DNA of 64,000 nucleotides from Thelephora terrestris (lineage: Eukaryota > Basidiomycota > Agaricomycetes > Thelephorales > Thelephoraceae), in assembly GCA_015956445.1 (NCBI GenBank), contig WIUZ02000003.1, positions 620,001-684,000 on the forward strand, read 5' to 3'. Of the stretch, positions 14,046 to 64,000 are shown piece by piece; position 1 is the stretch's first letter, and every line of letters starts with the position of its first letter. Made by a program: the position numbers and the translations under genes. The notes beneath the pieces are model-generated. The model saw only the letters and a list, made by a program, of their open reading frames with translations. It did no database searches and was not told where the DNA came from.

Positions 14046-14055
14046 AAAGTAGCTG

Positions 14056-27088: not shown

Positions 27089-27119
<31 letters not shown>

Positions 27120-30536: not shown

Positions 30537-30541
30537 TAAGA

Positions 30542-30572
<31 letters not shown>

Positions 30573-34827: not shown

Positions 34828-34940
34828 ATATCCCCCCTCAGGCCATTCAAAAACTCATGAGAAAAATCATTCAAATTTGCGACAAAAACTCCTAAAACAT
34901 TAATGTTTTTAATAAGGACTACTGCACACTCAACTACGTA

Positions 34941-36270: not shown

Positions 36271-37288
36271 CAGATTTGTGTATATATATATATATATTTC
36301 TGACAGCACCCTGTGTGTTCATCTAATGACTGATTTTACAGAAAGAAATCTGGAAATATATCATAGCACTTGTTCAATGTCAGGGAACTTGTTGATGGTG
36401 GGATTACCATTCAACATGAGATAGCACCTTCTGTGTGGTAAAGCCATAAAAATAATGTGTAGAGGCAACCGACCTGAACCAAGTAGCAGCAAAAAGCAAG
36501 AAAGCCAAGTGAGTAATTGTTTGGTCTGTGCACCACAAGAATGGCATGTGTGAAAGTGAGTGCGGTAGATGATTGTGTTGGAAGAATGTACAGTTGTCAT
36601 CCCCAAGCAATGTGGCATCATCGTAAATGATCGGTCAAGGCAATAATGATACCGTGCCGTTGAGGCATGAAAACAGAATAGTGACCAAGACTGTCTGATC
36701 AAAGGGGGCAAGCAACAAGTGCATGTATCAAGCGTTGAGCGATGTGGCTGGTCTTACCACACACAAGGCTAGGCGAAAGCATAGACGGCATTGGATTTGA
36801 TGGGTGTGGCATGCTGATAGGCACCCGATGACCTCTTGGGTGAAGGATGCTTTGCCCCTACAGGAGCACGAGTCTTGGTGGTGTGTGCTGGTTGGTGAAG
36901 AAGACTTCCTGGAGTGTTGTAGAAGTGGAGGAAGACATGGTGGTGCCCAGGCTCATAACCTGTGAGCCAGATAGGGAGCATTGGAGAGTCGTCTCAGATA
37001 GACAAGAACTAATCTAGCTACAAGTCAGATAGGGGTAAGAGTGTGCATACAATGAGAAGACTAACCTCAGTGCGCGGAAAAGAAATGCAAACACTGAGGT
37101 GAGAGCGAGCGGACACATGAGCTAAATGAGTAGCAGGCTGTAACGAAAGTGGATTGGGTGGCTATGGAAACGGACGGGTCGTATGATCAAATATATGTCG
37201 AAAATAACATATGTGGGAACTACAAGGTAAGTCCCAAACGGTTGAAAATAAACTTGGAAATCCTAACAGCACAGAGGGGAGATGCTGT
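36271..37288. other. Non-coding or unrecognised DNA with a short (TA)n
   Basis: A (TA)n run lies at ~36,278-36,297. A 116-codon - strand frame (36,361-36,711) and a 70-codon one (36,769-36,981) show no family resemblance that I recognise. Nothing else is supported. Confidence 0.4.
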
Positions 37289-38231
37289 CACTGGGGACAA
37301 GCCCCTACTTACTGACCAGGTACTTTTTGAATACATTGTAGTTCCATGTCCAATGTACTAACAGTTTGCTGAGCAAGAACAAGTTGAGTTCCTTCAGAAT
37401 GTACTAAACAATGTAACTACTACTTCCCAGCTCAGCACATTGTGGAAACATTCAAAAAGTACTGAATCATGTGACCACAATGTCCCTGATCAGTAATCGT
37501 TCAGTAATTTTTGATTGTCCCAAAGAAAGTGATAAACAAGTACCTGCACTGCACATTGTGGTTTCAATCAAAATTAACTGGATCATGTGACCACAAAGTA
37601 CCAAATTGGTGAATGCTGAGTACTTCTAGAATGACCTGTGCCCATGTGCCCAAATTTTACACGAGTGGCTCAAAGAAAATGTGATTACAAAGTACTGAGG
37701 CTGGGTAAATCCTGAACACCTTCTGAAAGAAACCAAAATATACTGCATCGTTGCACAGTACTTCTTAAACGATTTAGTATATTTTGGTTTCTTTCAGAAG
37801 GTGTTCAGGATTTACCCAGCCTCAGTACTTTGTAATCACATTTTCTTTGAGCCACTCGTGTAAAATTTGGGCACATGGGCACAGGTCATTCTAGAAGTAC
37901 TCAGCATTCACCAATTTGGTACTTTGTGGTCACATGATCCAGTTAATTTTGATTGAAACCACAATGTGCAGTGCAGGTACTTGTTTATCACTTTCTTTGG
38001 GACAATCAAAAATTACTGAACGATTACTGATCAGGGACATTGTGGTCACATGATTCAGTACTTTTTGAATGTTTCCACAATGTGCTGAGCTGGGAAGTAA
38101 TAGTTACATTGTTCAGTACATTCTGAAAGAACTCAACTTGTTCTTGCCCAGCAAACTGTTAGTACATTGGACATGGAACCACAATGTATTCAAAAAGTAC
38201 CTGGTCAGTAAGTAGGGGCTTGTCCCCAGTG
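37289..38231. mobile_element. Element P: palindromic non-autonomous DNA transposon, CACTG ends, 3-bp target duplication
   Basis: Termini are CACTGGGGACAAGCCCC and its mirror; the two ~470-bp arms mirror each other over almost their full length, with only a short centre near 37,760. The flanks are TGT at 37,286-37,288 and 38,232-38,234. CACTG ends plus a 3-bp duplication suggest a CACTA-superfamily passenger, possibly moved by a Plavaka-like enzyme; this is inference. It carries no gene. Confidence 0.75.
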
Positions 38232-39490
38232 TGTCACCAGATTTTGCATCGTGTTGGAACCGGCGGAAGAGGCGATCTTTGCGCTGTTGCCTTCGTAGTT
38301 GGGTGGGGTGACAGGAGACATCGAGTTGGTGGGTGATGTTGGAACGTGACGAGGGAGGAGTGGGGGAGGCGTGCCGGGGCCGAAAGATGGGATAGCCGTT
38401 GGATTGTTGTTCATGGTTGGTTTCAGATGGGCGAACAGTCCAGACGAGGGCAAGGGCAGCGTATATTGCGATGGGTAGGGACCGAGACCCTTGAAGTCCA
38501 TCCAGACCATTGATTCGAAGTCCTTGAGCGCGCTGGGCTCGACGTTGAGCTGCCACTCCAAGTTGGAGCACATCTCACGCTCTGTCTTCAAGGTGGAAAT
38601 GGAGAGGCGGTGTCCGGAGGAACCGCATGCGGCAATGAACCGGGTCCCCAGCCTTTGCAGTGGATAGAGAGCGATGGAGGTTGTTGAGGACATTAGTTGC
38701 GTGCGATGAGGCGCATTGGCGATAGAGTGGGTGAGGGATGGGGAGGGAGTATTGGACGAAGCAGGTGGGCGATCGGTCGGGACAGGTAAGACGTCTCCAG
38801 GGGAGGGACCCATTGACAGAAGATCGGTGGCTGTCACGTCGTAGTCGCGCCCAACACCAGGCGACCTGACAAAAGGAACGCCAACGCCGCAAGCAAGGGG
38901 CTCGTGGACTTTGGACTTAAGCTGGAGGTGTTCAGCCTCAGCTGACTTGAACCGGATAGCGGCCTCTTCACCGGGGGTGGTGATTCCGAGGTAAGGTGAG
39001 GGCTGACGAGAGAATGCGAGATCGCCCGGAGCGCTGGCGGAAGGATGCAGGAATGACTGGTTGTCGTCGAGGTTGATCGGGAGGTGCAGGATGGTCGAAG
39101 ATGGCTGGGATAAGGCGGGCGATGGCAAAACAGGACGCGGCAATGCGTTAGATTGAGTCGATGGGAGAAGGAGGGAAATCTTGAGATCCGATTGGACATG
39201 GCTAGAGTCACTGTCGTTGAACGAAGGGTAGATATTTTGACCAGCAGGAGGGGTGGCAATGCTCGTCAGACCGATGTCTGCGGAACAGCTTTTTTGAGGT
39301 GGGCAGAAGTTCGGTAGACAGCTAGGGGGGTGCTCAGTGGCGAAGCAACGCCGCAGGGCAAAATCCAGCTTGAGTAGGACAACGGCTCCTAAACGGTCGA
39401 GGTGGCGATCGCTGTTGTCGAAATGAGATCCAATGTATGGTGGGGAAGGTGTGCGGTGTTCAGCACAGTCCGCGCAAGTGCGTTCAAAGC
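38232..39490 (-). pseudogene. Decayed cyclin-like gene (PHO85-type/PCL cyclin suspected), interrupted by P
   Basis: A long - strand open frame contains STTSIALYPLQRLGTRF, AACGSSGHRLSIS and EREMCSNLEWQLNVEP followed by FESMVWMDFKGLGPYPSQY. These match, from memory, the cyclin fold of fungal PCL-type cyclins (partners of PHO85-like kinases). About 35-40 residues expected between GSSGHR and EREMC are missing without an intron, so the fold would not be complete. The tail is Pro/Ser-rich. The frame is open upstream to ~39,490 but its start is unclear. Element P is inserted near its 3' end. Confidence 0.5.
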
Positions 39491-40237
39491 CGCAAGAGGA
39501 TGCCCTGGATGGAGGGAGTTGTTCGTCAGCAGGTGTCCCAACGCCGCAAACCTAAGACCTGGACATATGGAGGAATCTTTTTTTTTGCTCAGTCCGTACC
39601 CCCCTCCATCGTGGAGGTTTGTGTTGAGCCTGCGAGGGGAATCTCTTTCGAAAAAGAGATGGCACTGGGGGCAGGGGCACCTGGAATTGGTGATTACATC
39701 TTGATTACATGTGCACTGTTCAATGATTGTAATCGCCAATTCCAGGTTGATTACATTTCAAATGTTACCTTGACATGTAATTCAACTGTTGCCACCAACT
39801 CCATTTGAAATTGCCTCAGGATATTTCCAAGCAATGTTTCCTGAATGTGCCCAGTGGGTACATTGTGAAAACATCTCATGTTTTTGAGCGCATTTAGATT
39901 ACATCTCGGACGATTGAAGAACATGCTGATTACATTGCAGTATCATTTTTGCCGACAGGTCAAAAGTGTCACGAACGCGTGACATAATAGCTAAGATCTC
40001 ACAGATAATTCAAGACATTGGTCTCATTCGTAATAATAATAATACAAGAGCGGCAACAAGGAACTACAAAATTAGACAAGCACAAACGGGTCAATATCAC
40101 ATGAACACTTCTGAGGAAGAGGGCAACGATGAGCGAAGTGGTGAGGGTTATGTATACTCTCAGGACAGTAAGACCAATCTCGCGTCACCGGATCCTGCCA
40201 ACACGCCCTACACCCCAACACATCATGAGACAGGCTA

Positions 40238-40975
40238 TCATACATCTCCCGCTTCACGTCCGACAAGGCTGCGCTCACTAAGGCGAACCCATAGCGGTCT
40301 TGGAGACCCGCCACTTCCACCTTCAACTTCATCCTCACCTGACGTGACTTGTCGGAGGGACGACAACGTTGACCAGAACGAGTCATCGGACTCTTGCGGG
40401 TCTTCTTCTTTTGGGACCTCTCCACCATCTGGCGAACTGGGGCAGGACTCCAGGGAGGGGATGGAGGGAGAGGAACGCCCTGATCCTGGCGGTGGCGAAG
40501 GGACGACTGGAGACTTGCAAGGGGGGTCGGTGCAGTAGGTCCCGTGACATTGGTGTCCGAAATATCGGAAGAGAGATGCCTGGAAAGGTCCCCAATGTTC
40601 CAAAGCAAAGTGAGAGAAGTCATCATTCAAACTGTTCATGATGACGTACATGAGATCCACCCGCTTCTCCAACTTCGCAATCCTATCCTCCCTATCCCGC
40701 TCCATGACGTCCAATAGCTGGACGGCTCCAGGGTGTAAAGCCCGGACCACAGGCCCAGAAGGTCTGGGGTCTTCATAACCGGCTTGTTCCCAGAATTCAG
40801 CAGGAGCGTTATGAGCGGTAAGGAAGTTGATGGCGACCTGATTGTCGTGGGCGATGTTGGCGGGGGTATCGTACAAGTGCTGCTCCACGTCGTAGGGAGC
40901 ATCCGTCTCGAAGGACGGAGTGAAGGGAGTAGCAGCGGCGTTGAGCACGGCGTTGTTGGCAGCGAAAGCAGACAT
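40238..40975 (-). CDS. Antisense gene of family D unit
   Basis: It is a single open frame of ~245 codons starting at a Met near 40,975 (MSAFAANNAVLNAAATPF). It has an N-terminal acidic region, a helical/coiled-coil-like stretch (ERDREDRIAKLEKRVDLMY) and an acidic Ser/Pro-rich tail. Unlike families A-C it shows no clear introns. The function is unknown; by position it is the counterpart of the other antisense genes. Confidence 0.5.
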   Translation of the reverse strand: MSAFAANNAVLNAAATPFTPSFETDAPYDVEQHLYDTPANIAHDNQVAINFLTAHNAPAEFWEQAGYEDPRPSGPVVRALHPGAVQLLDVMERDREDRIAKLEKRVDLMYVIMNSLNDDFSHFALEHWGPFQASLFRYFGHQCHGTYCTDPPCKSPVVPSPPPGSGRSSPSIPSLESCPSSPDGGEVPKEEDPQESDDSFWSTLSSLRQVTSGEDEVEGGSGGSPRPLWVRLSERSLVGREAGDV

Positions 40976-41630
40976 AGTAGTAGTGGATATGAAGAAGACG
41001 GTAGTGCTGGTGTTTGATGGGAGTGGAAAAGAGACGATGAGGGGAACGACCATTAACCCCCCCTGACTTAAATACACCCTGACTCAAAGGGAAACCAAAA
41101 AGGGAAAACAATAACCTATTATCCATTAAAGTCCCAGTTAGGATAAACGAACCCTCAGCCCCAATCGCGATCCCATCAAAGCCGAGAAATCCCCACCGAT
41201 CAAGAGAAATCCCCATCAGTCTTCTATTACCACCATGAAACAAGAGAAATCTCCATCACGCTTCTATTGCCGCCATTGATCCAGAGAAATCCCCATCGAC
41301 CACGAGAAATCCCTGGATGCTTCCATTGACTCGTGCCCCTATTGTTTCCGTATGAGTAATTACTATCTGTCGCCCTAAGTCCCCCCATTCTGACTCATCT
41401 ACCCTACCCTAAACTACGCACAGACCATGTTGACTCTTGTTTGGCTCGTCGTAAAATAATGACTCCTGTAGAGGATTGGGTATATAAGGAAGAGCGTTCG
41501 CTCCTTCTTTTCCCCATTCTCAATCTCTTCTGTACTCCCCTACCTATAACCTGAATACAAGTAAGCTGAGGAATTCTCCTCACGTCTTGCCTTTTCTAAC
41601 TCATTTTAGCAGGAATCCTCCTGCCAGTGT

Positions 41631-42254
41631 ATGTTCAACGCCCCTAACCCTTTCCCATCTACAAGTCCCGTTCAGCGACCAGTTGTCCCAGACGCTAGGA
41701 GATCTATCTGGGAGTATAAACTCATCAGAAGTCTTCAAGTAAACCGAACCGCCGGTTTACTCACCCATTTCCCTTACTATCGTCCCTTTGCAGCTCTCGA
41801 CGCCGGAGTCACTACTCCCCCTTTCCTTCTAGGCGCAGACCATCAGTTCCTTTGGAACTCAGACCTCACTGGGAGTGTCCTAGCAACCGTCTACTTCAGT
41901 GTTAGCCCCGCCTTTTATTTCCCATCTCCCAAAGTTCATTTAACCACCAACGTTCATACTCACTGTCCTGCTCTCATCGTCCTTTGGTGGGACATCCCGA
42001 CTGAACTACCTTATTCGATTATAGAATATCTCGTTCACTTCGAACAACTCAACGGTCAAGACTTCGAACCGTTCGTTCAGCAACTGAACCAGTTTTGCCA
42101 GGACTATAATTCACCCGTCCATCCTTATCAGACAGAGTCACCACTCTCCCTTGATATCCCCCCTCCTCTCACCTCTACGCCCGGAACCCCCTTCAAAACT
42201 CGACCCGACACCCGACACCCCTCCGCTAATCCTCTAGCGCCCCACAAACAGTAA
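41631..42254 (+). CDS. Sense frame in the R-U5-like part of family D
   Basis: This is a 207-codon frame, MFNAPNPFPSTSP.., downstream of the outward TATA box and after a possible leader intron. A recognisably related but decayed sequence lies at ~15,400-15,870, so the frame was conserved as protein during the life of the family. It has hydrophobic and Trp-containing stretches (PALIVLWWDIPTELPYSIIEY). The family is not recognised. Confidence 0.45.
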   Translation: MFNAPNPFPSTSPVQRPVVPDARRSIWEYKLIRSLQVNRTAGLLTHFPYYRPFAALDAGVTTPPFLLGADHQFLWNSDLTGSVLATVYFSVSPAFYFPSPKVHLTTNVHTHCPALIVLWWDIPTELPYSIIEYLVHFEQLNGQDFEPFVQQLNQFCQDYNSPVHPYQTESPLSLDIPPPLTSTPGTPFKTRPDTRHPSANPLAPHKQ

Positions 42255-42589
42255 GCAGGCCTACAACCCTGACAAAAAGCATCCCAGAAACATTTTTTGA
42301 GAACATTTCAAATGGAATTGGTGGACATTGGTTGGATTACATGTCAAGGTAACATTTGAAATGTAATCAACCTGGAATTGGCGATTACAATCATTGAAAA
42401 GTGCACATGAACTCACCATGTAATCAAGATGTAATCACCGATTCCAGGTGCCCTTGCCCCCAGTGTGGGGTGGTGGTGGTGGTGGCGGGAGGGTCGATGG
42501 TGGTTGCTTTCGAACGCTTGAACAAGTTGCTGCCCAATGCGAAGGCCACGATCACGCACGCCTAGAAGGTGAGTTCCGATTCAGCTACG

Positions 42590-45111: not shown

Positions 45112-45477
45112 CCCAATTTGACCAATATTTAATTCCAATCTGACCCGACGAGATAATAATTCAGTCCAAAAGCAATCATCAATCAATTATAAATCAACTT
45201 TAAATAGGATTAAAATCAGATTTTATTTACTTCGGTCGAGATTTTTATTTCTTCTCTTTCATAATAATCGATCTTGATCACTCCGGATCAGAATTTGCTC
45301 AAAGTGGATTTTTATTGATAAAAATTTGGCGGCAGCTTTTTGTGACACAGCAGAGTTGGCACAAAGAAGGTTTGATTTAGGAGGAGCTGGTGACGCGAGG
45401 GAAAAGGAGTGAAGTTTGGTAGTGAGGAAATTTGATGAAGAAGCAAGCCTCTGGTCCCCAACAGCTATTGTGATTGG
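45112..45477. other. AT-rich spacer
   Basis: About 365 bp of AT-rich DNA follows the hairpin. I see no gene or clear repeat in it. Confidence 0.4.
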
Positions 45478-46165
45478 TGGAAGTGTTTAGTTGCCGCTGA
45501 AACTGCCACCATTTTGACAGCATCTAAAGTACTGTATTTTCTTCTGTACAGAACAGGCTTACTATTGCAGGTTAACTTCTCTGCCTGAATGTGTTGCGGG
45601 TGACCTTGGGGCCAAGCAAGAGGCTATTCTGTGAGACATCAGAGAGAAGCCCAACCTCTCTTTTCTGTGTTGCACAAGGAGACTAGACCAGATATCTATT
45701 GGGGGACAATCTGGTTGGTTCAATCTATTAGTCCTTGTAGATTGTTTGGGCAGAGATAGTGTAGCACTTCCTCATAGCCTTTTGGGTATGCCTGAATTGT
45801 AGAGAGCTGCTCAACTGTAGCTGAAGCAAGAATGTCTCTGGCAGGAATACAAGAAACCTGGCCAGGCCCATGAATCTTTGGGAATGTTTGTATGGAAACA
45901 GAGGCCCTTTGACAGATAAGTACATCCATGGCCTGATGAAAATTACAGAAACTCACTGGAGAAAGACACTGGAAGAAATTCAAGAGTCCACTCCATGTAA
46001 GCTGCATGAAGCAACAGCCATGTCAAGGCAAAACGAAAACAAGCATACAAAGGCTCCTGAGTCAGTGGAAGGACTGTTAGGTGTGTGAGTGGAAACTGCC
46101 TGGCCTAGTTTCAGGGGTTGGTATTTGGTCAAGAACATAAAATACAGGGCCAGTGATTGTTGCTT

Positions 46166-47771: not shown

Positions 47772-48889
47772 CAGTAGTACTTATTAAAATGATTAAGACT
47801 TTGTGATGTTTTGTCTTAAAAGTGAATAATTTTTCTCATGAGTTCCTCAATGCCCCCAAGGGGGCAAATTTTACTCATAGAGTATTAATCAAAATTATGG
47901 GGGGGACTAGGACCCAGCTGACCGGGCACTGGTGTTCCCAATTAGGCAGGTGCCGACGGTGTGGATGACCCGGGAGAGTGGATTGCTTATATAATGAAAA
48001 ATAGACTGTGGGAATTTCCGATCAAAATTTTCCCAAAAGGGAAAATTTGATGGCTGAGATAAGCAGGTCATGTGACTGAAAAAAGTGGGTTTTGGTTATG
48101 TAAGCAGGTCATGTGATCGACCAAAAAAAGAAAGTTTTGATGGCTTATATAAGCGTCTCAAAAATGCTTTTGGACGGGTATTTCCTAAAAAGGAAATTCC
48201 TTTTTAGGAAAATTTGATGGCTGACATAAACAGGTCATGTGACTGAAAAAAGTGGGTGTTGCTGATGTAATCAGGTCATGTGACCGACCAAAAAAGGAAA
48301 GTTTTGATGGCTTACATAAGTGTCTCAAAAATGCTTTTGAACGGGTATTTCCTAAAAAGGAAATTCCCTTTTAGGAAATATTTGATGGCTTACATAAGCG
48401 GCTCAAAAATGCTTTTTGCAAAAATTACCGAAAAAGGAAATTTTGATGGCTTACATAAGCAACTCAGAAATGATTTTGACAAAAAATACCAAAAAAGGAA
48501 ATTATATGCTAAAAAATTCGGAAAAATGCCAGAAAAATCCTAAAAAATACCGAAAAAATTCCCACAGGTCTAGAAAGTGCCCAAAATGGTAAATCAATTC
48601 CAGAAATATCCAAAAAATTGTTTTTCTGGCTGGAAAAATCAGGAAAAAATCCGAAAAAATTCCCAAAAATTCCAGAATATAGGTAAATATTTTATAAAAA
48701 TCATTTCAATTTTTTTGGTCCATTGAATAGCCCATAATTCCAATATTCATGTATTTTTTGCCCAAAAAATTCATAAAAATCCCAAAAAATAAATAAAAAT
48801 TGGAAAATACAAATACACCTATAATATTCATTACACCATGAAGTAAAGACCAGTTTGTGATCATAAACCAGCCCTAAACCTAGTCCTGG

Positions 48890-49114
48890 ACCTAACCTAA
48901 CCTAACCTAGCCTAAACCTAACCTAACCCTAACCTAAACCTAACCTAACCTAACCCTAACCCTAAACCTAACCTGCCCTAAACCCAGCCTGCCCTAAACC
49001 TAACCTAGCACCAAACCTAAACCTAAACCTAACCTAAACCTAAACCTAACCTGCCCTAAACCTAACTCTGACCTGGCCTAGTTTGGCCTTATCTTATCTT
49101 ATCTTATCTTATCT

Positions 49115-49145
<31 letters not shown>

Positions 49146-49150
49146 TCTTA
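48890..49150 (+). repeat. (CCTAA)n and (TATCT)n arrays, left arm of PAL2
   Basis: Shorter relatives of the PAL1 arrays: CCTAACCTAAA units, then ~13 TATCT units. Confidence 0.9.
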
Positions 49151-50099
49151 TCCTGTCTTACCTACCCTAGACCCAACCTAACCTGACATAGTCAACTTAA
49201 CCTAGTCCACCACAGATCACCCAACCTAACCTAAAGTGGTCCACCTGACCCAGACTGATGCAGCTTGAGTTTATCTCTTCTAATCAGCTGTTATCTTATC
49301 TGGCCTTAATCTAAATACCCTAGCTAACCAACATTTAACCCAACCTCACCTGGCTCACCAGCAAGTAACTGGGCTACAGGAACACACCCTGAGCTGCACT
49401 ATCCCATATCCTATATCCAACCGTCACTCAAACACAAGAACTGTGGTGGACCTACAAGTTGGTGGACCCACAAGTATAGGCTGCTCACTCAGTGGAGACA
49501 TCTGTTATCCAACCTCACCCACGTACCACCCTCACCCTGGATTCTGTGCCAGACCACAACTTCACCACGGCTCAAGTTCAACCACCTGGCTGAACCTGCA
49601 AGTCAGGTTGATAGACTGTTGGTTATGGATCCATGGATTTGTAGACCTGATTGTACATGGGTTCAGCCAGGTGGTTGAACTTGAGCCGTGGTGAAGTTGT
49701 GGTCTGGCACAGAATCCAGGGTGAGGGTGGTACGTGGGTGAGGTTGGATAACAGATGTCTCCACTGAGTGAGCAGCCTATACTTGTGGGTCCACCAACTT
49801 GTAGGTCCACCACAGTTCTTGTGTTTGAGTGACGGTTGGATATAGGATATGGGATAGTGCAGCTCAGGGTGTGTTCCTGTAGCCCAGTTACTTGCTGGTG
49901 AGCCAGGTGAGGTTGGGTTAAATGTTGGTTAGCTAGGGTATTTAGATTAAGGCCAGATAAGATAACAGCTGATTAGAAGAGATAAACTCAAGCTGCATCA
50001 GTCTGGGTCAGGTGGACCACTTTAGGTTAGGTTGGGTGATCTGTGGTGGACTAGGTTAAGTTGACTATGTCAGGTTAGGTTGGGTCTAGGGTAGGTAAG

Positions 50100-50110
50100 A
50101 CAGGATAAGA

Positions 50111-50141
<31 letters not shown>

Positions 50142-50380
50142 AGATAAGATAAGATAAGATAAGATAAGGCCAAACTAGGCCAGGTCAGAGTTAGGTTTAG
50201 GGCAGGTTAGGTTTAGGTTTAGGTTTAGGTTTAGGTTTAGGTTTGGTGCTAGGTTAGGTTTAGGGCAGGCTGGGTTTAGGGCAGGTTAGGTTTAGGGTTA
50301 GGGTTAGGTTAGGTTAGGTTTAGGTTAGGGTTAGGTTAGGTTTAGGCTAGGTTAGGTTAGGTTAGGTCCAGGACTAGGTT
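50100..50380 (-). repeat. (AGATA)n and (TTAGG)n arrays, right arm of PAL2
   Basis: Mirror of 48,890-49,150. Confidence 0.9.
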
Positions 50381-51348
50381 TAGGGCTGGTTTATGATCAC
50401 AAACTGGTCTTTACTTCATGGTGTAATGAATATTATAGGTGTATTTGTATTTTCCAATTTTTATTTATTTTTTTGGGATTTTTATGAATTTTTTGGGCAA
50501 AAAATACATGAATATTGGAATTATGGGCTATTCAATGGACCAAAAAATTGAAATGATTTTTATAAAATATTTACCTATATTCTGGAATTTTTGGGAATTT
50601 TTTCGGATTTTTTCCTGATTTTTCCAGCCAGAAAAACAATTTTTTGGATATTTCTGGAATTGATTTACCATTTTGGGCACTTTCTAGACCTGTGGGAATT
50701 TTTTCGGTATTTTTTAGGATTTTTCTGGCATTTTTCCGAATTTTTTAGCATATAATTTCCTTTTTTGGTATTTTTTGTCAAAATCATTTCTGAGTTGCTT
50801 ATGTAAGCCATCAAAATTTCCTTTTTCGGTAATTTTTGCAAAAAGCATTTTTGAGCCGCTTATGTAAGCCATCAAATATTTCCTAAAAGGGAATTTCCTT
50901 TTTAGGAAATACCCGTTCAAAAGCATTTTTGAGACACTTATGTAAGCCATCAAAACTTTCCTTTTTTGGTCGGTCACATGACCTGATTACATCAGCAACA
51001 CCCACTTTTTTCAGTCACATGACCTGTTTATGTCAGCCATCAAATTTTCCTAAAAAGGAATTTCCTTTTTAGGAAATACCCGTCCAAAAGCATTTTTGAG
51101 ACGCTTATATAAGCCATCAAAACTTTCTTTTTTTGGTCGATCACATGACCTGCTTACATAACCAAAACCCACTTTTTTCAGTCACATGACCTGCTTATCT
51201 CAGCCATCAAATTTTCCCTTTTGGGAAAATTTTGATCGGAAATTCCCACAGTCTATTTTTCATTATATAAGCAATCCACTCTCCCGGGTCATCCACACCG
51301 TCGGCACCTGCCTAATTGGGAACACCAGTGCCCGGTCAGCTGGGTCCT

Positions 51349-54300
51349 TGTCAGGAACATGGTATTTTTAAACTTTTTATAACACGCTCTTTCTTCGAAC
51401 TCTTCTTACCAATTCTTATGTTTGAATGCTTCACCTTCCTTATCCTTCACACCGATCATTCAAAACACACAAAACGCGCATACATTCACGGCAATACGAA
51501 ACAACCTGGCTATACAAATGCTTCTACAACGTCCTCAAAAGTCGACTCTATCTACGGCAGGCCTCATGGTCATCACCCGTCCATCCCGGAGATCGTAGTG
51601 CTGGCCCCTTCTCGCAAGAACCTCCCTGAACATGGCGTCACCATCTTCGGCACTCAGCTGAACGACTAGTTCAAGCCGATAGGAAGAGATACCTTCGAGC
51701 GGACCGATCAGCCTCCCAGATGTCACCGAACTGCGGAACACCTGGTCCCACATCTCCATCACCGGGTGACTGCTCGACAGTACTGTCGACGTAGTCGGCA
51801 AGCGACCCTCCATCTCCCTCATCGGACCCCTGGGCGGAATCCTGTCTTGCGAGTCGTAGCTGGTGGCGAAGCTGGATCTCCGACTCGACCTGTCGGTAGG
51901 GACGGTTGACTCGATAGCGGAACTCTCGTCCCCCACCTCGACCAGAGAGGTCACCATCCGACTCAACTGGTCGAGGGTAAGGATTAGCCGACGCGGTCAT
52001 ACGATGAGCAGGACGGCGTCGAGAGCGCTTGCAACGTTGCCCCTTAGTCACCGGACGTACCTCGGCGACCCGTGGAGCATCTTCAGCTCGGTCCACTTCC
52101 ATGACCGCATCCTCGATCTTCACCAACTGATGGATCGGCTGCAAGACACAGCGCCCACAGTTCTCCTTGTCGGAAGCGGCCAAGGTGGAAGCCGGACCTG
52201 GAGTCGGAACGGGAACCGCGTTCTCGATCGGAGGCGTCGCATAGGACGACGGGTTAGGCGATGGGAGTACCACCTCGTCGGCGTACTCCAACTCAAACGG
52301 AACATCGGCGGTCCCCTGACCAACCAATTTGGGACCCTCCTTGCAGTTGCAGGTCTTGTCCTGCAAGGACTCAACCTGCGCTGTCAACACAGCCACCACG
52401 TTCTCGAGTTCTTCGGTCTAGGAAATGTCAGCTTCCATCATTCTAAGCAATGATGAAAGCAGCATTACCTTTTCATCCCTCCTGGCCAACGCTCCCTTGA
52501 TGTTGTTATCCCTGACCTTCAGACCGGTGATCAACTCTTGATGGTTGGCGACCATTGCCTCCAACGCTTCGTTCGTTCCCTGCTGGAAGGCGGCCAAGGT
52601 CTCCTTCATCTGAAGACCCTCCGCAGACAGACGAAGGATGTCTGCCTTCGCCTCCTTCACCTCCCGCTCCAATCGTTCCACCTAGGCAGTCTGATTAGTC
52701 GAGAGTCATACTCGAATATTCAGACGGAAAACCTACCCGGCTTTCCCCCTCCCGAACGAGCGACCACAAAAGGCTAGTGGAAGCGGTAGCATGACGGACG
52801 GCCCGAGGAACGGTAGCTCCGTGCTCCAACAGGTCCTGATCGTAGATTCCCCTCTGAAGGGTGTACCAGAGCTCCTTCTTGATCGGATGCTCCAACTCTC
52901 CGAACCTACCCCTCATCTGGAAGGCCACCTTCTCCGCGATAATCGTACGGACCCAGAGCTCATCATCCCAGGTTAACCCCTTCAAATGAGGCATAGTCTC
53001 CCTGAGACGTTCGGCGTCCACTTCCGTGACGACCTCCAAGATCTAGAAGCCGTTAGCTGGACATCAACGCCCAAAAGAACGTAACCTCTACCTAGAGGAA
53101 GGCGTTAGTGCAAACACACGAAGCTCTAGGTCTCCCCCATACCTGGTCATCCGTGGTATAGGGAGTCCCAGCCGCACAGGCGTAGGACTTGCAAGCGGCG
53201 GCACGACGGTCGATACGAGAGATGGTGGAGATACCATTGGCGACTTTGTAGGTATGGTTGTTGGGGAAGGACATGTTTTGGTAGGATGATGGGGAAGTTG
53301 CTGGTGTTGCTGATCAAGGATGGCTCCAAGAAGACGTCCTTCTTATAGCCTAGATCGGTGATCCTTCACGTGACCTACCTCGACGAACCTCATTGGTCCG
53401 GGTCACATCAACTTCTGCCCCTGTACCATCATCGTCGGCTTACTACATCAAGCTGACACCTCAGCCCGCGGGACGGCCTTGGAAGAACTTCGTTCCGGAA
53501 CGCCTAGAACGCGCGCGCACTAAAAATAGGTCTCAAGACCCTGATGACCCCGTTATGACATCACGAACCCCTTTTACGACCCCTCATGACTTTACGATTA
53601 CAATCAACCCTGGACCCTGATCCCACACGTGGACAGTCACATCACAGTCTCCTAACCGGAGGAAGGACTCGCCGCTATTCGGAAGCATCGCCTTAGGATC
53701 CTTCTGGTTAGCCCAGCGCATGTGGAGTAGCCGTTAGCGTGAAACGCCGGCGAATCTGTAATCCCTCATGTCCCATGAGTCTAGGCCCGACCTCCTCATG
53801 TTCGGACGTACGTTGAGGTTGCCACTTGTCCGTGATGCTGTTACCGCCTACAGACAACAAGGGATGTTGAATGTCTCTACTCCCGAATCCAGCTGGCAGA
53901 GGCCATGTAAAGGGAGATTGACACCTGGCCCTTGGGTGAGATCCCAAGGTACGAACTTTCACGACCCCATGCTCCTATTTCCATTTGGACTAGTGTTATC
54001 TTTACCCCTATGTTTCATGCGGACATTCCTTATCTTTTATGCAATTCTTCACACGCTAGTAAGGCCCTTTGTCTCCTACTCTCCCACGCGTCACCTTTGT
54101 TCGCTTCCCTTACTTAGCGTTCTCACACTCCTTATCTCCCTTTGTTCTGGACTTGATAAGGGTATATTAGGGTATTGACGTCATGGCCACTCCTTTAGTA
54201 TAAGTAGCAACTGTGGCTGTATCGTAGTACCTTAGTTTTGTTACCTCAGGAAATCCTCTGCCCTTCTCAGCCCAGTTGCAGTTAAGGACAAGTCAGAGTT

Positions 54301-54652
54301 TCTTGTTTGATCCAAGACATCCCCATCTGCTCTCCCTCCCGCTCTGCGCGTCAACTGCGCCTCGTAACTATAGACTCTCTGCAGTCATATTAGAACACCT
54401 CGAGCGTCCAGTCGATCAACTGGTGGAGTCATCAAATCCTGTTGTAGGGATCAACCCTTGCTTGTTAAACCGAACGAAGTGCGGTTTAGGTTGGGTTTCT
54501 CTTTAGGATTTCGACCTGACTTGTAGTGACCTCGGACAACCTACCGGAAGAATAGAGACGTGATCGTTCTCTCACAAGCTAGTTGGACTAGTGAGTACTC
54601 TGCGGAGTCGGCTCAGTGCACTGGTAGTTGTTGGGGTAGAGTGGCCCTGACA
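51349..54652 (+). mobile_element. Family A giant LTR-like unit, copy A4 (recombination partner of A5)
   Basis: It is 3,304 bp from TGTCAGGAACATGG to GTGGCCCTGACA. The left flank is GTCCT (51,344-51,348) and the right flank GAAAG (54,653-54,657), which do not match each other but do match the flanks of A5. It carries the outward TATA (~54,200) and the - strand gene from ~53,274 down to ~51,671. It looks whole. It is almost identical to A5 (same length and near-identical frames), so both are young or recently homogenised. Confidence 0.85.
51671..53274 (-). CDS. Antisense gene of family A unit A4
   Basis: The same four blocks as in A1 all look open: N-terminal ~53,147-53,274, helical ~52,735-53,044, coiled-coil ~52,470-52,681, and a Cys/Pro/Arg-rich C-terminal block ~51,671-52,420. 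Intron-like gaps of ~50-105 nt separate them. A CTATAAG box lies ~70 bp upstream of the start. The function is unknown. Conservation of blocks between diverged copies suggests it was maintained as protein. Confidence 0.55.
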
Positions 54653-54750
54653 GAAAGGAGTTGCGGGTTGGTCTGAATACCTGTTTCCAGAGTCGATGAG
54701 GCAAGGAATTATTGACTTGGTTGGTGAATCCATATCAATCCCATTGATTT
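54653..54750 (+). pseudogene. F-box gene 1, C-terminal end (displaced by the inversion)
   Basis: The frame reads GVAGWSEYLFPESMRQGIIDLVGES. The preceding residues HQLGPKGVGK are at 60,595-60,640 on the - strand, next to A5. The target bases GAAAG are shared, so the codons join without change of frame once one target copy is counted. It is the tail of the gene whose other pieces lie at 60.6-61.0 and 62.8-63.6 kb. Confidence 0.6.
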
Positions 54751-54754
54751 TTGA

Positions 54755-55150
54755 CAATCACCACTGTATGTTGCCTACGTCACCAACAGAAAGAATCATC
54801 AACATTGTTGGTTGTCTCGAGGGTGCCACTGGGGTGGACTTGGCCGAGAGTGGTTGGGTTCCAACTTTTTCTTGCTTTGTGCGATTGGAAGCGTTCAGCT
54901 CTGAAGCGTTCAGCCTTGATGACATCCTCTTGGGGATGTTTTCTCCCCATTCCCCAACAATTTCAAGTTTCTCCATGTGGACCGCTCCGCCACTCTACCC
55001 TCGCAACCCCTTAATCTCATCTACCCCCTCCCACTTCTCGAAAACCTCAGTGTGGTTTGTTTCAATCTCAAGCCGGGTGGACCACCGACAATTAGTTCCT
55101 CTTCGGCCCTGGCCCCGCTGACTGGAATGCTTGACACGAGATGCTGCAGC
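54755..55150 (+). pseudogene. F-box-family fragment 2
   Basis: It shows LAESGWVPTFSCFVRLEAF and, in another frame, LNLIYPLPLLENLSVVCFNLKPGGPPTI. These match the middle of F-box gene 1 (63.0-63.4 kb: VTKGGWIQTFSSVMRFEAR and LVNLIYPLLVLRDLSL). There is at least one frame change, and no F-box domain is present. Confidence 0.6.
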
Positions 55151-55754
55151 GACTCATCCAACACTTGTGAGAATCATCAACCAGAATGGGCTTGGCTGAG
55201 AGGGAGAGCCACTGGAGATTATGGTGGGAACGTTAACCCCTTTGGATAACATGACCCATGGTCGGGCTCGAGTCGTAGCCTTCATTAGCACCCACTGGCA
55301 ACCTACGGGTGATTTAGTTGACCAGCTACTGAGGATAGCCATACGTATCTTGCATTTTCTGAGGTTGTCCTCAAATTAACCTCAGCCAAAGAGTTGAGAA
55401 AGCGCTCCCGGTTGTGACATACAATGTGAGTGCAGGTTGGACACTGTCGTTCACCCGAACGCCTGCGAGCAGCGAGTGCCAGATCTGACCAGGTAGAGAT
55501 AGTGGGGGCTCAACACATTTGCGGCGCTTGGTACTGCATCTATCATTGTTGACGAATGCAACAATTGATGGAGACTGTTGAATGAAGAGATTTGGATGGG
55601 AGTTTGCGAGGATCGAAAGCCAGTAAAAGTTGTAAGGGTGACACTCAGAATCCGTGGGGTGGGATGTGAAGAGTGCCGGCTTATTGGTGGCGCCTTAGGG
55701 TGAAGTTCAGCCTTGAAGCGCACTTGAGCCCACACCCGGGGTGGTGACGGTTAG
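55151..55754. other. No feature recognised
   Basis: About 600 bp lies between two F-box fragments. I see no convincing gene or repeat in it. Confidence 0.4.
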
Positions 55755-56877
55755 AAAATACTCAAGAAGGACAGATTGGTGGCAAAGTCTCCTTCCTTTC
55801 TCTCAAAGACCTCAATGCCTGGAAAGATATTTTCCCAGATGCTGTTAACTCACCTGCCACCTATACCAGCTCTCTGTTAATCAATTGCCCATGTGACATC
55901 TGCACCTTGGCAACTGTAGAAGGGAGAAGTTGGCTCCAGTTGTTTTCCAACGTTGTGCGTTTGACGGTCATTGGTGCGAGGTTTTGTGATTTCGTTTCCT
56001 TTCAACTGCTTCTTAAACCTCACTGCGCAGTTCCTGAAATCTCTTCTGCCTCACACTTCTTCAAGCTTCTTTGTTCCCTACCCCTTCTTGAAGACTTGAA
56101 AGTAGCAAGCTATGGGTTTGGCAACAACGATGACGATGACACCGCCTTCCACCCTCCAACCTCACCGCCGTTGACCAGAACCCTTGAACTTTGTATGGTT
56201 AAAATGGAATCCATCACATGCCAACTGTGGGAACTATGGGTGGCATTTGTTTTCGGAAACTCGTGTCCTCATGGAGCTGCAAGGATCAGTGTCGATGGGT
56301 CGGGGCTATGGTGGAGAAGTGCGTTGATACCCTCGAGTGCATCAAGTTTGTGGGCATGTACCTCGGTGAGTTTTGTTCCTTTGGTTTCCCTTTTGGACTT
56401 GTAGCTGAATTGTCCTCACTTCTGTGCTGGTGAATCTAGGAGAGGCTTCAATCAATCTCTTTGAAGTGATAAGACTCAAAGAGGTGATGTTTGGCCTCGA
56501 CGAAATTGAGGACGTGTGCCCCACTGTAGCACTCAAAACCATCACATCCAAACACACACAGTTCAAGAATGTTTCTATCTTCATCCCTGTCTCAGACCAT
56601 GCTCCTCTTGACAAAGCCATAGGTTTCATTAAAAAAGACATTCTCATCTGATGGATGGACTTTGACCGTGTTCCCATTCAACTCTGGGAGTTGCATGCAA
56701 TTCACACGCAGGTCACCTACACTACAGAACAAGAGGAGAAAGAGACACTTGAGTACATAGGGAGCTTGTTGCCAGAGATGATGAAGAGAGGAATACTTGG
56801 GACGGTAGATGCAGTGTTGGACAATCAACAACTCAAACATCATCAACAAGCCATGCTTCAAATAATCATGGTAATTT
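55755..56877 (+). pseudogene. F-box/LRR-like gene 3, decayed
   Basis: It shows LKDLNAWKDIFPDAVNSPATY (compare LEAWKNTFPDPSNSPAHH in gene 1), LFSNVVRLTVIGARF, HFFKLLCSLPLLEDLKVASYGF, MVEKCVDTLECIKFVGMYLG, then after an intron-like gap (~56,367-56,440) EVMFGLDEIEDV and a tail IGSLLPEMMKRGILG. A frame change near 56,220-56,245 and an in-frame TGA near 56,649 break it. F-box proteins recruit targets to SCF ubiquitin ligases; the N-terminal F-box itself is not seen here. Confidence 0.65.
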
Positions 56878-56939
56878 AAGCATGTGATCTGATTTGACTT
56901 TCAGACTTTGGACTTTCCGGAGATTCTTAGTTTGTCATA

Positions 56940-57140
56940 GTCTAGACTAATGTTCTTGTAGTCCGGTTCTGAACCCGCCGAACCAAAGTTCAAACACTAA
57001 CATGACCAGCAGGAACCGAACCCAATGTCCGGTTCATGCTACGTTCTCAAGGTGTTCGGTTCACGTTCGGCCTGGGCATGGGATTACTGAACATGTTCGA
57101 ACGCGTTCGAATGCGTCCGAACCCGTTAGATGTGCCGTAG
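56940..57140. repeat. GTTCGG-rich repeat, copy 2
   Basis: It shares the start GTCTAGACTAATGTTCTTGTAG with 47,135 and contains CGGTTC/GAACCG units. It ends near the PAL2 target duplication at 57,142-57,148. Confidence 0.5.
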
Positions 57141-57148
57141 TGTACAGT

Positions 57149-57290
57149 CAGTAATATTTATTAAAATGATTAAGACTTTGTGATGTTTTGTCTTAAAAGT
57201 GAATAATTTTTCTCATGAGTTCCTCAATGCCCCCAAGGGGGCAAATTTTACTCATAGAGTATTAATCAAAATTATGGGGGGGACTAGGAC
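57149..57290 (-). mobile_element. Displaced right tip of PAL2 (142 bp)
   Basis: It is near-identical to the left tip 47,772-47,913, same length, ending in AGGAC exactly where A5 begins. Confidence 0.85.
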
Positions 57291-60200
57291 TGTCAGGGCC
57301 ACTCTACCCCAACAACTACCAGTGCACTGAGCCGACTCCGCAGAGTACTCACTAGTCCAACTAGCTTGTGAGAGAACGATCACGTCTCTATTCTTCCGGT
57401 AGGTTGTCCGAGGTCACTACAAGTCAGGTCGAAATCCTAAAGAGAAACCCAACCTAAACCGCACTTCGTTCGGTTTAACAAGCAAGGGTTGATCCCTACA
57501 ACAGGATTTGATGACTCCACCAGTTGATCGACTGGACGCTCGAGGTGTTCTAATATGACTGCAGAGAGTCTATAGTTACGAGGCGCAGTTGACGCGCAGA
57601 GCGGGAGGGAGAGCAGATGGGGATGTCTTGGATCAAACAAGAAACTCTGACTTGTCCTTAACTGCAACTGGGCTGAGAAGGGCAGAGGATTTCCTGAGGT
57701 AACAAAACTAAGGTACTACGATACAGCCACAGTTGCTACTTATACTAAAGGAGTGGCCATGACGTCAATACCCTAATATACCCTTATCAAGTCCAGAACA
57801 AAGGGAGATAAGGAGTGTGAGAACGCTAAGTAAGGGAAGCGAACAAAGGTGACGCGTGGGAGAGTAGGAGACAAAGGGCCTTACTAGCGTGTGAAGAATT
57901 GCATAAAAGATAAGGAATGTCCGCATGAAACATAGGGGTAAAGATAACACTAGTCCAAATGGAAATAGGAGCATGGGGTCGTGAAAGTTCGTACCTTGGG
58001 ATCTCACCCAAGGGCCAGGTGTCAATCTCCCTTTACATGGCCTCTGCCAGCTGGATTCGGGAGTAGAGACATTCAACATCCCTTGTTGTCTGTAGGCGGT
58101 AACAGCATCACGGACAAGTGGCAACCTCAACGTACGTCCGAACATGAGGAGGTCGGGCCTAGACTCATGGGACATGAGGGATTACAGATTCGCCGGCGTT
58201 TCACGCTAACGGCTACTCCACATGCGCTGGGCTAACCAGAAGGATCCTAAGGCGATGCTTCCGAATAGCGGCGAGTCCTTCCTCCGGTTAGGAGACTGTG
58301 ATGTGACTGTCCACGTGTGGGATCAGGGTCCAGGGTTGATTGTAATCGTAAAGTCATGAGGGGTCGTAAAAGGGGTTCGTGATGTCATAACGGGGTCATC
58401 AGGGTCTTGAGACCTATTTTTAGTGCGCGCGCGTTCTAGGCGTTCCGGAACGAAGTTCTTCCAAGGCCGTCCCACGGGCTGAGGTGTCAGCTTGATGTAG
58501 TAAGCCGACGATGATGGTACAGGGGCAGAAGTTGATGTGACCCGGACCAATGAGGTTCGTCGAGGTAGGTCACGTGAAGGATCACCGATCTAGGCTATAA
58601 GAAGGACGTCTTCTTGGAGCCATCCTTGATCAGCAACACCAGCAACTTCCCCATCATCCTACCAAAACATGTCCTTCCCCAACAACCATACCTACAAAGT
58701 CGCCAATGGTATCTCCACCATCTCTCGTATCGACCGTCGTGCCGCCGCTTGCAAGTCCTACGCCTGTGCGGCTGGGACTCCCTATACCACGGATGACCAG
58801 GTATGGGGGAGACCTAGAGCTTCGTGTGTTTGCACTAACGCCTTCCTCTAGGTAGAGGTTACGTTCTTTTGGGCGTTGATGTCCAGCTAACGGCTTCTAG
58901 ATCTTGGAGGTCGTCACGGAAGTGGACGCCGAACGTCTCAGGGAGACTATGCCTCATTTGAAGGGGTTAACCTGGGATGATGAGCTCTGGGTCCGTACGA
59001 TTATCGCGGAGAAGGTGGCCTTCCAGATGAGGGGTAGGTTCGGAGAGTTGGAGCATCCGATCAAGAAGGAGCTCTGGTACACCCTTCAGAGGGGAATCTA
59101 CGATCAGGACCTGTTGGAGCACGGAGCTACCGTTCCTCGGGCCGTCCGTCATGCTACCGCTTCCACTAGCCTTTTGTGGTCGCTCGTTCGGGAGGGGGAA
59201 AGCCGGGTAGGTTTTCCGTCTGAATATTCGAGTATGACTCTCGACTAATCAGACTGCCTAGGTGGAACGATTGGAGCGGGAGGTGAAGGAGGCGAAGGCA
59301 GACATCCTTCGTCTGTCTGCGGAGGGTCTTCAGATGAAGGAGACCTTGGCCGCCTTCCAGCAGGGAACGAACGAAGCGTTGGAGGCAATGGTCGCCAACC
59401 ATCAAGAGTTGATCACCGGTCTGAAGGTCAGGGATAACAACATCAAGGGAGCGTTGGCCAGGAGGGATGAAAAGGTAATGCTGCTTTCATCATTGCTTAG
59501 AATGATGGAAGCTGACATTTCCTAGACCGAAGAACTCGAGAACGTGGTGGCTGTGTTGACAGCGCAGGTTGAGTCCTTGCAGGACAAGACCTGCAACTGC
59601 AAGGAGGGTCCCAAATTGGTTGGTCAGGGGACCGCCGATGTTCCGTTTGAGTTGGAGTACGCCGACGAGGTGGTACTCCCATCGCCTAACCCGTCGTCCT
59701 ATGCGACGCCTCCGATCGAGAACGCGGTTCCCGTTCCGACTCCAGGTCCGGCTTCCACCTTGGCCGCTTCCGACAAGGAGAACTGTGGGCGCTGTGTCTT
59801 GCAGCCGATCCATCAGTTGGTGAAGATCGAGGATGCGGTCATGGAAGTGGACCGAGCTGAAGATGCTCCACGGGTCGCCGAGGTACGTCCGGTGACTAAG
59901 GGGCAACGTTGCAAGCGCTCTCGACGCCGTCCTGCTCATCGTATGACCGCGTCGGCTAATCCTTACCCTCGACCAGTTGAGTCGGATGGTGACCTCTCTG
60001 GTCGAGGTGGGGGACGAGAGTTCCGCTATCGAGTCAACCGTCCCTACCGACAGGTCGAGTCGGAGATCCAGCTTCGCCACCAGCTACGACTCGCAAGACA
60101 GGATTCCGCCCAGGGGTCCGATGAGGGAGATGGAGGGTCGCTTGCCGACTACGTCGACAGTACTGTCGAGCAGTCACCCGGTGATGGAGATGTGGGACCA

Positions 60201-60594
60201 GGTGTTCCGCAGTTCGGTGACATCTGGGAGGCTGATCGGTCCGCTCGAAGGTATCTCTTCCTATCGGCTTGAACTAGTCGTTCAGCTGAGTGCCGAAGAT
60301 GGTGACGCCATGTTCAGGGAGGTTCTTGCGAGAAGGGGCCAGCACTACGATCTCCGGGATGGACGGGTGATGACCATGAGGCCTGCCGTAGATAGAGTCG
60401 ACTTTTGAGGACGTTGTAGAAGCATTTGTATAGCCAGGTTGTTTCGTATTGCCGTGAATGTATGCGCGTTTTGTGTGTTTTGAATGATCGGTGTGAAGGA
60501 TAAGGAAGGTGAAGCATTCAAACATAAGAATTGGTAAGAAGAGTTCGAAGAAAGAGCGTGTTATAAAAAGTTTAAAAATACCATGTTCCTGACA
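57291..60594 (-). mobile_element. Family A giant LTR-like unit, copy A5
   Basis: It is 3,304 bp, the inverted near-identical partner of A4. Flanks are AGGAC (57,286-57,290) and CTTTC (60,595-60,599). Its gene runs on the + strand from 58,669 to ~60,272. It looks whole. A single coding difference from A4 was noticed in a shadow frame near 58,480, so divergence is very low. Confidence 0.85.
58669..60272 (+). CDS. Antisense gene of family A unit A5
   Basis: The start is ATG at 58,669 (MSFPNNHTYKVANG), ~70 bp after a CTATAAG box. Four open blocks match A4: ~58,669-58,796, ~58,899-59,208, ~59,262-59,475 and ~59,525-60,272. The third is strongly helical (REVKEAKADILRLSAEGLQ). The fourth has CNCKEG and CGRC, then a basic RCKRSRRRPAHR stretch and an acidic tail. 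There is no reverse transcriptase, protease or integrase motif. Confidence 0.55.
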
Positions 60595-62420: not shown

Positions 62421-62830
62421 AGGAATTCAGCCTCAAACACACCCTTTGAGCATCCCCCTCTTTTCCCCTCCCCTTTGGTCTACCCCAGTAGATCATCCCC
62501 TCCACTCTTGATCTCCCCTTAGATCAGGAACTCCATTCCCATCAAATCACCACCAAACCCCCACACACCAGATAAGCGTCTAATCAAGGAACAGGAACAA
62601 CTGAGTGATATAGTACGTCTGATTCCCTTGGAATAATACTGAAGGACACACTCACAGAGTAGATCCCTCAGCGAACTCATCAGGTCCGAGAGCCGGAAAG
62701 AGGAACCCCGCTCACCCTGTGGAGTTGTTAGTTGTGTTCATAGACTACTCAACCAGCCTGCTTAGCTTCTATACACTTAGTCTCTAAGCGAACCAACTGG
62801 GTCTAGTTATCTTCTGTATAGAACATAACA

Positions 62831-63593
62831 CTACACCACCCACGAGCACGACACCGGTTGACCCGTTGCCGGGCACAGACCTCCAGTTCAACAGAAGCTC
62901 AAGGTACTCGAGTGTTCCAGAACAAGCCTCAACCAATCTCCCCATGCAGGCAAAATTGGATGAGATCAACCTGCTCTCTCGGAAGTGAAGACCGCTCGGT
63001 ATATCCAATAATTGATGGACCATACTTGTCATCCCGAATGACACTTGAAGGCCAAGGGTTTCGGTTAACGGGGGCGGATTTGAATAAGTTATGGTCAGTG
63101 GTCCACCCGGGTCGAAATCACAACTGGTCAAGCTGAGGTCTCTGAGAACTAGAAGGGGGTAGATGAGATTGACAAGTTGCAAGAGTAGAGTGCAGGAGCG
63201 GCCCATGTGGAGGGCCTTGATAGTGTTGTGGAATGTGGAGAGAAAAATCTCTAAGACAGCATCATTGACGTTGCGTGCTTCAAATCGCATGACGCTAGAA
63301 AAAGTTTGAATCCAACCGCCCTTGGTCACGTCTGCCACGGTTGTGCCCCTCATACAGTAGATCAATAGAGTGTGTGTGTGGTGAGCGGGAGAGTTGGATG
63401 GATCCGGGAATGTGTTTTTCCATGCCTCGAGGTCATGAGGGATAACAAACTTGACGACGGCAAATATGTGTTTTTGTGTGCACAACACCCATGATTTAGA
63501 AACGAGACAACACTGCTCGAGTGTCTCTGGATCGTCATGCAAGAAGTTGACGATGCGGTCGCATATCTCTTGTGGGATACAGAGGTTAGACAT
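62831..63593 (-). pseudogene. F-box gene 1, N-terminal part with F-box domain
   Basis: The frame starts at 63,593 (MSNLCIPQEICDRIVNFLH); an in-frame Met 13 codons upstream is possible. Residues ~5-45 form an F-box (IPQEICDRIVNFL..LEQCCLVSKSW), the Skp1-binding domain of SCF ubiquitin ligase adaptors. It continues through the LRR-like middle (VTKGGWIQTFSSVMRFEAR, LVNLIYPLLVLRDLSLTSC). About 254 codons are open before the LTR at 62,830 cuts the gene. The remainder matches the pieces at 60,595-60,965 and 54,653-54,750. Confidence 0.75.
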
Positions 63594-63654
63594 CGTGGTT
63601 CGAGGAAGGGTGTATTGTGGTCCGGGACCCACATCCTCCCACCGGGGACAAGGG

Positions 63655-64000
63655 TTGGTTTACTGAGTCAGTAAAGTGTGAGTAAATCACAAGTAAATGG
63701 AAAAATAACCCAGCCAAATACCTGCCTGGCAAGCACAAAGCAAATTTACAATTTACTGAGCCAATTTACCTGCAATTTACTGGGTTCAGTATGTGCTCAG
63801 TATGTTTGCAGTTTACTGGGTCATGTGACCATGGTTTCCCCATTAGGTAAACCTTGGAAAAATCTACAATTTACTGGATGAATTTACCAGCGATTTACTG
63901 AGCCACTTGCCCAATCAGTATGTTTTTAATTTGCTGAGTGGTTTGATCGCGATTTACTGGACTCAGTAAACTGGAAAAAAACCAAACTGGTTTACTGACG
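63655..64000. repeat. CAGTAAA/TTTACTG-rich repeat, cut by the window end
   Basis: More than ten TTTACTG(A/G)G and mirror motifs lie in 345 bp, starting GGTTTACTGAGTCAGTAAAG just upstream of the F-box gene start. It looks like the end of a MITE or foldback repeat. Confidence 0.45.

Follow-up and report, generated by a model that had tools for sequence, protein, structure and literature searches.

Two near-identical TG..CA units around an inverted spacer in Thelephora terrestris, and their probable relation to solo long terminal repeats that carry an antisense gene

Results

The window analysed in this work is a 64,000-nucleotide stretch of the Thelephora terrestris genome (GenBank assembly GCA_015956445.1, contig WIUZ02000003.1, positions 620,001 to 684,000), and the subject is the interval 51349-60594 of this window, together with the mobile units of the same kind that surround it. 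A first-pass annotation had listed the interval under a class of giant units resembling long terminal repeats (LTRs), and had missed its inverted spacer. The interval is redrawn here as two units of one family with exact ends, A3 (51349-54652) and A4 (57291-60594), which enclose an inverted spacer and show crossed target duplications. A3 is 3304 bp long with TG..CA ends, its presumed LTR sense strand being the + strand and its antisense gene lying on the - strand; A4 lies on the - strand, inverted relative to A3, and has its antisense gene on the + strand. The spacer (54653-57290) contains gene copies related to an F-box-like protein encoded at 62784-63659 (Pfam E 0.0024, below the Pfam cut-off) and is inverted with respect to its flanks.

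A3 and A4 differ by one mismatch in 3304 bp (99.97% identity). The flanks read GTCCT-A3-GAAAG and AGGAC-A4-CTTTC, so that each unit is without a duplication of its own, and the 5-mer on either side of one unit is matched, in reverse complement, by a 5-mer beside the other. These 5-bp duplications are crossed because A3 and A4 are independent units and the 2.6 kb of DNA between them lies in inverted orientation. When the A3 flanks are crossed, they align over 241 columns with 99.6% identity to 47788-48028, with the empty site at 47905-47925 in the other arm of the palindromic element X1, and the uncrossed flanks do not span that site. With the inversion undone, the second end of X1 also falls into place, with ACTGTAC on both sides (7 bp, read by eye and without a chance estimate). 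For A4, the crossed join gives a single open reading frame (ORF) of 261 aa over the junction, as compared with frames of 72, 111 and 9 aa at the uncrossed join. Alignment of a spacer paralogue to the 261-aa ORF covered 122 columns with 29% identity (E 6e-10 as a single comparison; local score 102 against a shuffled maximum of 45 in 300). The crossed flanks, the empty site and the crossed ORF thus indicate that X1 was the insertion site of A3, and a relative of the F-box-like protein gene that of A4, and that the spacer is now inverted.

Discrete units of 2.3-3.3 kb bounded by TG..CA make up families A, B, C and D. Family A has five copies, one of them truncated, which were found by self-comparison of the window, and TG..CA ends are present on A1, A2, A3, A4, B, C and D. 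A1 (6700-9959, + strand) is flanked by TCCGG and nested in unit E1, A2 (16711-19929, +) by TGAAG and nested in unit E2, B (31898-34827, +) by ATATC inside the long palindromic element X2, and D (39967-42274, +) by AAAAG. These four duplications, reported by the first-pass annotation, were confirmed by a scan that paired 72 left with 102 right ends of the TGTCAGG/CCTGACA type, allowing at most one mismatch and distances of 200-12000 bp, in which equal outer 5-mers occurred in the four listed pairs belonging to A1, A2, B and D, all 1.5-4.5 kb long. When the ends were jittered by at most 200 bp in 1000 trials, such pairs at 1.5-4.5 kb numbered 0.35 on average and never more than 3. The GGGTG duplication reported for C (27878-30297, +, also inside X2) is present, with five further GGGTG candidates listed in the same search, and the repeat reads as the 9 bp CAGGGTGTG; it may be either a 5-bp duplication lengthened by fortuitous identity with TG and CA or a genuine duplication of 9 bp. 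The terminal inverted repeat of the units is only about 7 bp.

The window contains empty sites for A1, A2, B and C; A3 has one only with crossed flanks. When joined, the flanks of A1 align over the junction to the host of A2 with 79% identity, and those of A2 to the host of A1 with 80%, both hosts being E units. Those of B match the other arm of its host X2 with 100% identity over 212 of 240 positions, as far as the end of X2, and those of C match X2 itself with 100% identity over 240. No empty site was found in the window for D, and none at the DNA level, with no DNA paralogue, for A4. A1, A2, A3 (crossed), B and C were inserted as units.

The claim of at least five TG..CA families held for A, B, C and D. 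For E, to which no coordinates had been given, only the gene-side end was found. E1 (4746-10345, -) is degenerate and interrupted by A1, with its gene-side end at 4746; position 10345 is the limit of its homology to E2, and its far end was not found. E2 (16142-20625, +) is likewise degenerate and interrupted by A2, its coordinates being the extent of homology to E1. The gene-side end TGTCAGGGCCACTCT occurs exactly in seven places, namely the five A copies, B and E1, and as judged by this end, shared with A and B, E is itself a unit. Two further partial copies are A5 (22976-25572, -), truncated, and D2 (15119-15907, +), the right-hand part of a second D copy, which shares the end of D at CTGACA.

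A5 stops exactly at 25572/25573, where X2 begins, and the rest of the unit is not taken up again beyond X2 on the right; hence this junction is not a simple insertion. X2 (25573-34924) and X1 (47772-51348 plus 57149-57290) are both long palindromic elements; they contain tracts of the TTAGG/CCTAA type and have ends (CAGTAG..) in common. The element that hosts E1 (4056-4745) has a second copy at 45476-46165 (99% identical) and is in turn similar to an E-type unit (72.5% over some 295 bp), which together with A1 would make the nesting three deep. A further candidate with matching ends at 36378-38871 (TGTCAGG..CCTGACA) was rejected as a unit, being without a duplication and containing a separate, near-perfect palindrome at 37289-38231 (464-bp arms, 98% complementary, 15 bp between them).

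The antisense gene of family A was modelled on the + strand of A4. Exon 1 (58669-58800) starts 73 bp downstream of TATAAGAAG and is followed by exon 2 (58901-59206), exon 3 (59262-59474), in which sub-threshold matches to coiled-coil families lie, and exon 4 (59526-60272 in its first frame). Two frames compete after about 59980, and a conserved tail (60273-60408) continues in the +1 frame to ..RPAVDRVDF and a stop. The gene is predicted to have at least four exons, all three introns being GT..AG in four of four copies. The first-pass annotation had named neutral evolution of the antisense frames as a result that would count against its proposal; it did not occur in family A, where the ratio of non-synonymous to synonymous divergence (dN/dS, Nei-Gojobori) was 0.01-0.30 in 24 of 24 exon-by-pair comparisons at dS of 0.24-1.15. 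These comparisons cover exons 1-3 and the beginning of exon 4 in the six non-independent pairs of four copies, A3 being omitted because its sole difference from A4 falls outside the gene. Pooled differences at codon positions 1, 2 and 3 numbered 210, 123 and 552 in the true frame, which contains no stops, as against 24-172 stops in the other five frames. On this comparison of sequences, the family A antisense gene is real and under purifying selection, and that selection has kept it intact suggests that it matters to the element.

Beyond about 59980, dN/dS is higher, at 0.37-0.67 for frame 0 and 0.53-0.67 for frame 1, with frame 1 favoured (0.23-0.24) over the final 44 codons. The conserved tail of A2 is brought into the frame of exon 4 by a 43-nt gap, and no such solution was found in A1 or A4. 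The 43-nt gap may be a lost intron, but hand-counted candidate introns do not restore the frame. Over 57291-60408 the synonymous divergence of the A copies varies by exon, hinting at mosaics.

When the spliced A4, B and C proteins were compared with Pfam, all matches lay below the curated cut-offs, and some were to coiled-coil or leucine-zipper families. The A protein includes a basic stretch, KGQRCKRSRRR, and cysteines. A PDB sequence search with 251 aa of this protein gave a best E of 0.12, and the predicted structure of exon 2 (mean predicted local distance difference test score, pLDDT, 54.8) was too poor for a fold search. No relatives of the A protein or of the D sense ORF were confirmed in contig scans of viral and prokaryotic collections, and since these collections are viral or prokaryotic, such an absence says little about fungi.

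An antisense gene had been proposed for every family. It is coding in A and has a homologue in B, and in C and D it is plausible only. The B gene was modelled on the - strand with exons at 33763-33897, 33381-33710, 33063-33329, 32860-33010 and 32172-32809, and with introns at places corresponding to those of A; its protein is 30% identical to that of A4 over 455 columns (126 bits), with an hhalign probability of 99.5 against the A profile. The C exons, as modelled, lie at 29416-29602, 29027-29361, 28902-28973 and 28340-28849 (-), and D has an antisense ORF at 40238-40975 (-) and a sense ORF at 41631-42251 (+), the C and D antisense genes being plausible from their ORFs and, in C, from splice-like sites. 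The sense ORF of D differs from D2 by 32%, 25% and 54% at codon positions 1, 2 and 3, as compared with 32%, 32% and 39% upstream, in an alignment that ends at the CTGACA of both. It has no Pfam match, and its predicted structure (pLDDT 34.5) was too poor for a fold search. The gene part of E2 (16303-16710) contains a CCHC-like motif (CACCGKDRHEPYSC) near LVPIDSE, a string that by eye resembles LVPVDDE of C and LVPIEDM of A2 and may mark a shared tail.

Outward TATA-like boxes, which had been placed 260-800 bp from the right ends in all families, are predicted promoters and lie 260-790 bp from those ends overall. They were found by scan in A1 (451 bp), B (474 bp), C (260 bp) and D (788 bp; others at 166 and 726 bp). 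The scan missed A2-A5, where TATAAG at the same aligned place was read by eye only.

Short GT..AG introns and matches to Plavaka and DDE_3 transposases in the window, together with the F-box-like protein, suggest a fungus of the mushroom type. An inverted array of 45-bp and 27-bp tandem repeats lies at 11350-14060, with its centre near 12.8 kb. Scans of the window for tRNA genes and Rfam families found nothing.

Discussion

The units are probably (about 0.6) solo LTRs of several fungal Ty3-like LTR retrotransposon families, each with a long U3 region that includes an antisense gene, and the interval 51349-60594 would consist of two such units around an inverted spacer. We infer LTR status, as well as transcription and introns, from the DNA sequence, and an LTR assignment is the best-supported reading of the ends, the duplications, the empty sites, the predicted order of the promoters and the selection on the gene. 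To that extent the earlier proposal of solo LTRs with an accessory gene in U3 stands. The grouping of all families into one class stands for A and B, which are homologous in sequence; C and D share the layout, with marginal similarity at best.

Each LTR would have a very long U3 with a divergent promoter pair. The outward TATA box would start the genomic RNA, and the second, opposite box would drive the intron-bearing, coiled-coil-like gene. Read in the direction opposite to the genomic RNA, the gene would not lose its introns by splicing in retrotransposition and would pass them on, and as it lies within the LTR, it would survive loss of the internal region by LTR-LTR recombination. In a full-length element, the primer binding site would follow the right end (AGAGTGGCCCTGACA). 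A3 would then be a solo LTR in X1 and A4 a solo LTR in an F-box-like gene, with the spacer inverted between them, and the role of the antisense protein would perhaps be regulatory.

Several observations weigh against this interpretation. As the first-pass annotation had stated, no gag-pol is attached: among 145 ORFs of at least 100 aa (400 of at least 60 aa), none had a Pfam match with E of 0.01 or less to reverse transcriptase, integrase, RNase H or gag, a search that short or heavily broken pol pieces could escape. A motif scan (YxDD, TDAS, HHCC, CCHC; ORFs of at least 40 aa) gave four hits, one being the CCHC of an E unit, in an ORF without a Pfam match to any of these proteins, and the other three lying in ORFs shorter than 100 aa, outside the Pfam search. 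A solo LTR would itself have no pol. No paired units were found in the window, all seven intact units (A1-A4, B, C, D) being solitary. The duplication of C is ambiguous and may be 9 bp. The similarity of the C and D genes to A is marginal, with blastp E values of 0.061 (C/A2) and 0.009 (D/A5) in a ten-sequence set and hhalign probabilities against A of 0.5 (C) and 1.2 (D) percent, the E pieces reaching 0.1-0.6. The conserved sense ORF of D stops 22 bp before the right end, which is unusual for R-U5. In family A, the dS of the gene is far above the divergence of R-U5 with the promoter (2-6%), of the gene 5' region (3-8%) and of intron 2 (7-9%), for which constraint or mosaic ancestry are the only explanations offered. 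At the interval itself, the spacer paralogue scores 92 left of the A4 junction and 37 on the right side alone; as the latter lies inside the shuffled range, this test adds little. Finally, the A3-A4 flip could be an assembly error.

The spacer may have been flipped either by recombination or in assembly. An assembly artefact, which concerns the flip only and is compatible with solo LTRs, has somewhat less than an even chance: with one mismatch in 3304 bp between inverted units, and a 3.4-kb palindrome nearby, an assembler could have mis-joined the sequence and turned the spacer. The same product is expected from ectopic recombination, which can invert the DNA between inverted repeats and can also homogenise the repeats. 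The 99.97% identity of inverted arms 2.6 kb apart might also recall a single 9.2-kb transposon with 3.3-kb terminal inverted repeats. Such an element has equal duplications outside both arms, whereas the outer flanks here are GTCCT and CTTTC and match crosswise. In addition, A1 and A2 stand alone with duplications of their own, and crossing the flanks restores two separate target sites. A single transposon is thus highly implausible, the crossed duplications and the empty site having refuted it.

That the units are solitary and without pol would also be expected if, instead of LTRs, they were mobile units complete in themselves at 2.3-3.3 kb, each holding a single gene or two divergent ones and moved by their own product or in trans, for example by a retroviral-type integrase. 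The strongly selected gene inside the unit and the two divergent ORFs between the ends of D agree with this. It is nevertheless unlikely, given a terminal inverted repeat of only about 7 bp, TG..CA ends with a 5-bp duplication, which are the usual mark of LTR integration, and A, B, C and D proteins without a match above a Pfam cut-off; frequent recombination to solo LTRs would, moreover, be expected of long LTRs. It is rather doubtful that the units form a complete, LTR-derived mobile class that moves as single pieces with integrase supplied in trans and has the selected antisense coiled-coil-like gene, plus the D sense gene, as its only genes. More doubtful still is the recent capture of a host gene, irrelevant to mobility, by one LTR family. 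Its introns and promoter are host-like, and it has no Pfam similarity to retroelement proteins, but selection acts across copies and B has a homologue (about 30% identity) at the same place and on the same strand, which makes the association of gene and unit an old one.

Comparison with known systems

If the gene sits in an LTR, a solo LTR would stay gene- and promoter-bearing after the body of the retrotransposon is gone, which would change the view of solo LTRs, usually treated as regulatory debris, and antisense placement would let an intron-bearing gene pass through an RNA intermediate. The crossed duplications offer a worked example of the way in which inverted solo units can flip the DNA between them. 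No antisense gene inside a fungal LTR was found among the matches listed in a literature search (titles and abstract openings), and as that search was limited to open-licence papers, novelty is provisional.

In a mushroom, the Gypsy element MarorGypsy-26 of Marasmius oreades is described as reduced to one LTR, which is ascribed to LTR recombination, and the word antisense does not occur in that text (PMC9674265). Six Gypsy/Ty3 LTR models had training lengths of 174-695 (PMC3601003), as compared with 2.3-3.3 kb for the units here. In the Retand lineage of plant Ty3 elements, antisense ORFs, mostly TRP28, lie between pol and the 3' LTR; they are kept across many LTR-retrotransposon clusters, some encode Smc domains, and a regulatory role has been proposed (PMC11963269). 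In T. terrestris, by contrast, the gene lies between the TG and CA ends, and no pol was found. TRP28 (PF04195) was absent from the Pfam matches with E of 1 or less for the A, B and C proteins, in a search where HMMER filters drop most weak matches and the presence of the model in that Pfam copy was unchecked. The text of the Retand paper does not use the word intron, whereas the gene here is predicted to be intron-bearing; the paper names the APH-2 antisense gene and states that what antisense proteins do in plant Ty3 elements is unknown (PMC11963269).

A separate example from a fungus, in which selection can be measured, would open the function of such proteins to test. By analogy with HBZ and with the role proposed for the Retand antisense proteins, one may guess that the A protein acts on transcription or RNA. 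HBZ of human T-cell leukaemia virus (HTLV), a human retrovirus, is an antisense gene with an LTR promoter and a regulatory product, and lies mostly outside the LTR; the likeness is that of an antisense gene with an LTR promoter, and is one of layout. The sag gene of mouse mammary tumour virus (MMTV) is an accessory gene inside the LTR, a location that, by layout, the gene described here would share, the difference being that sag is in sense orientation and the T. terrestris gene is antisense.

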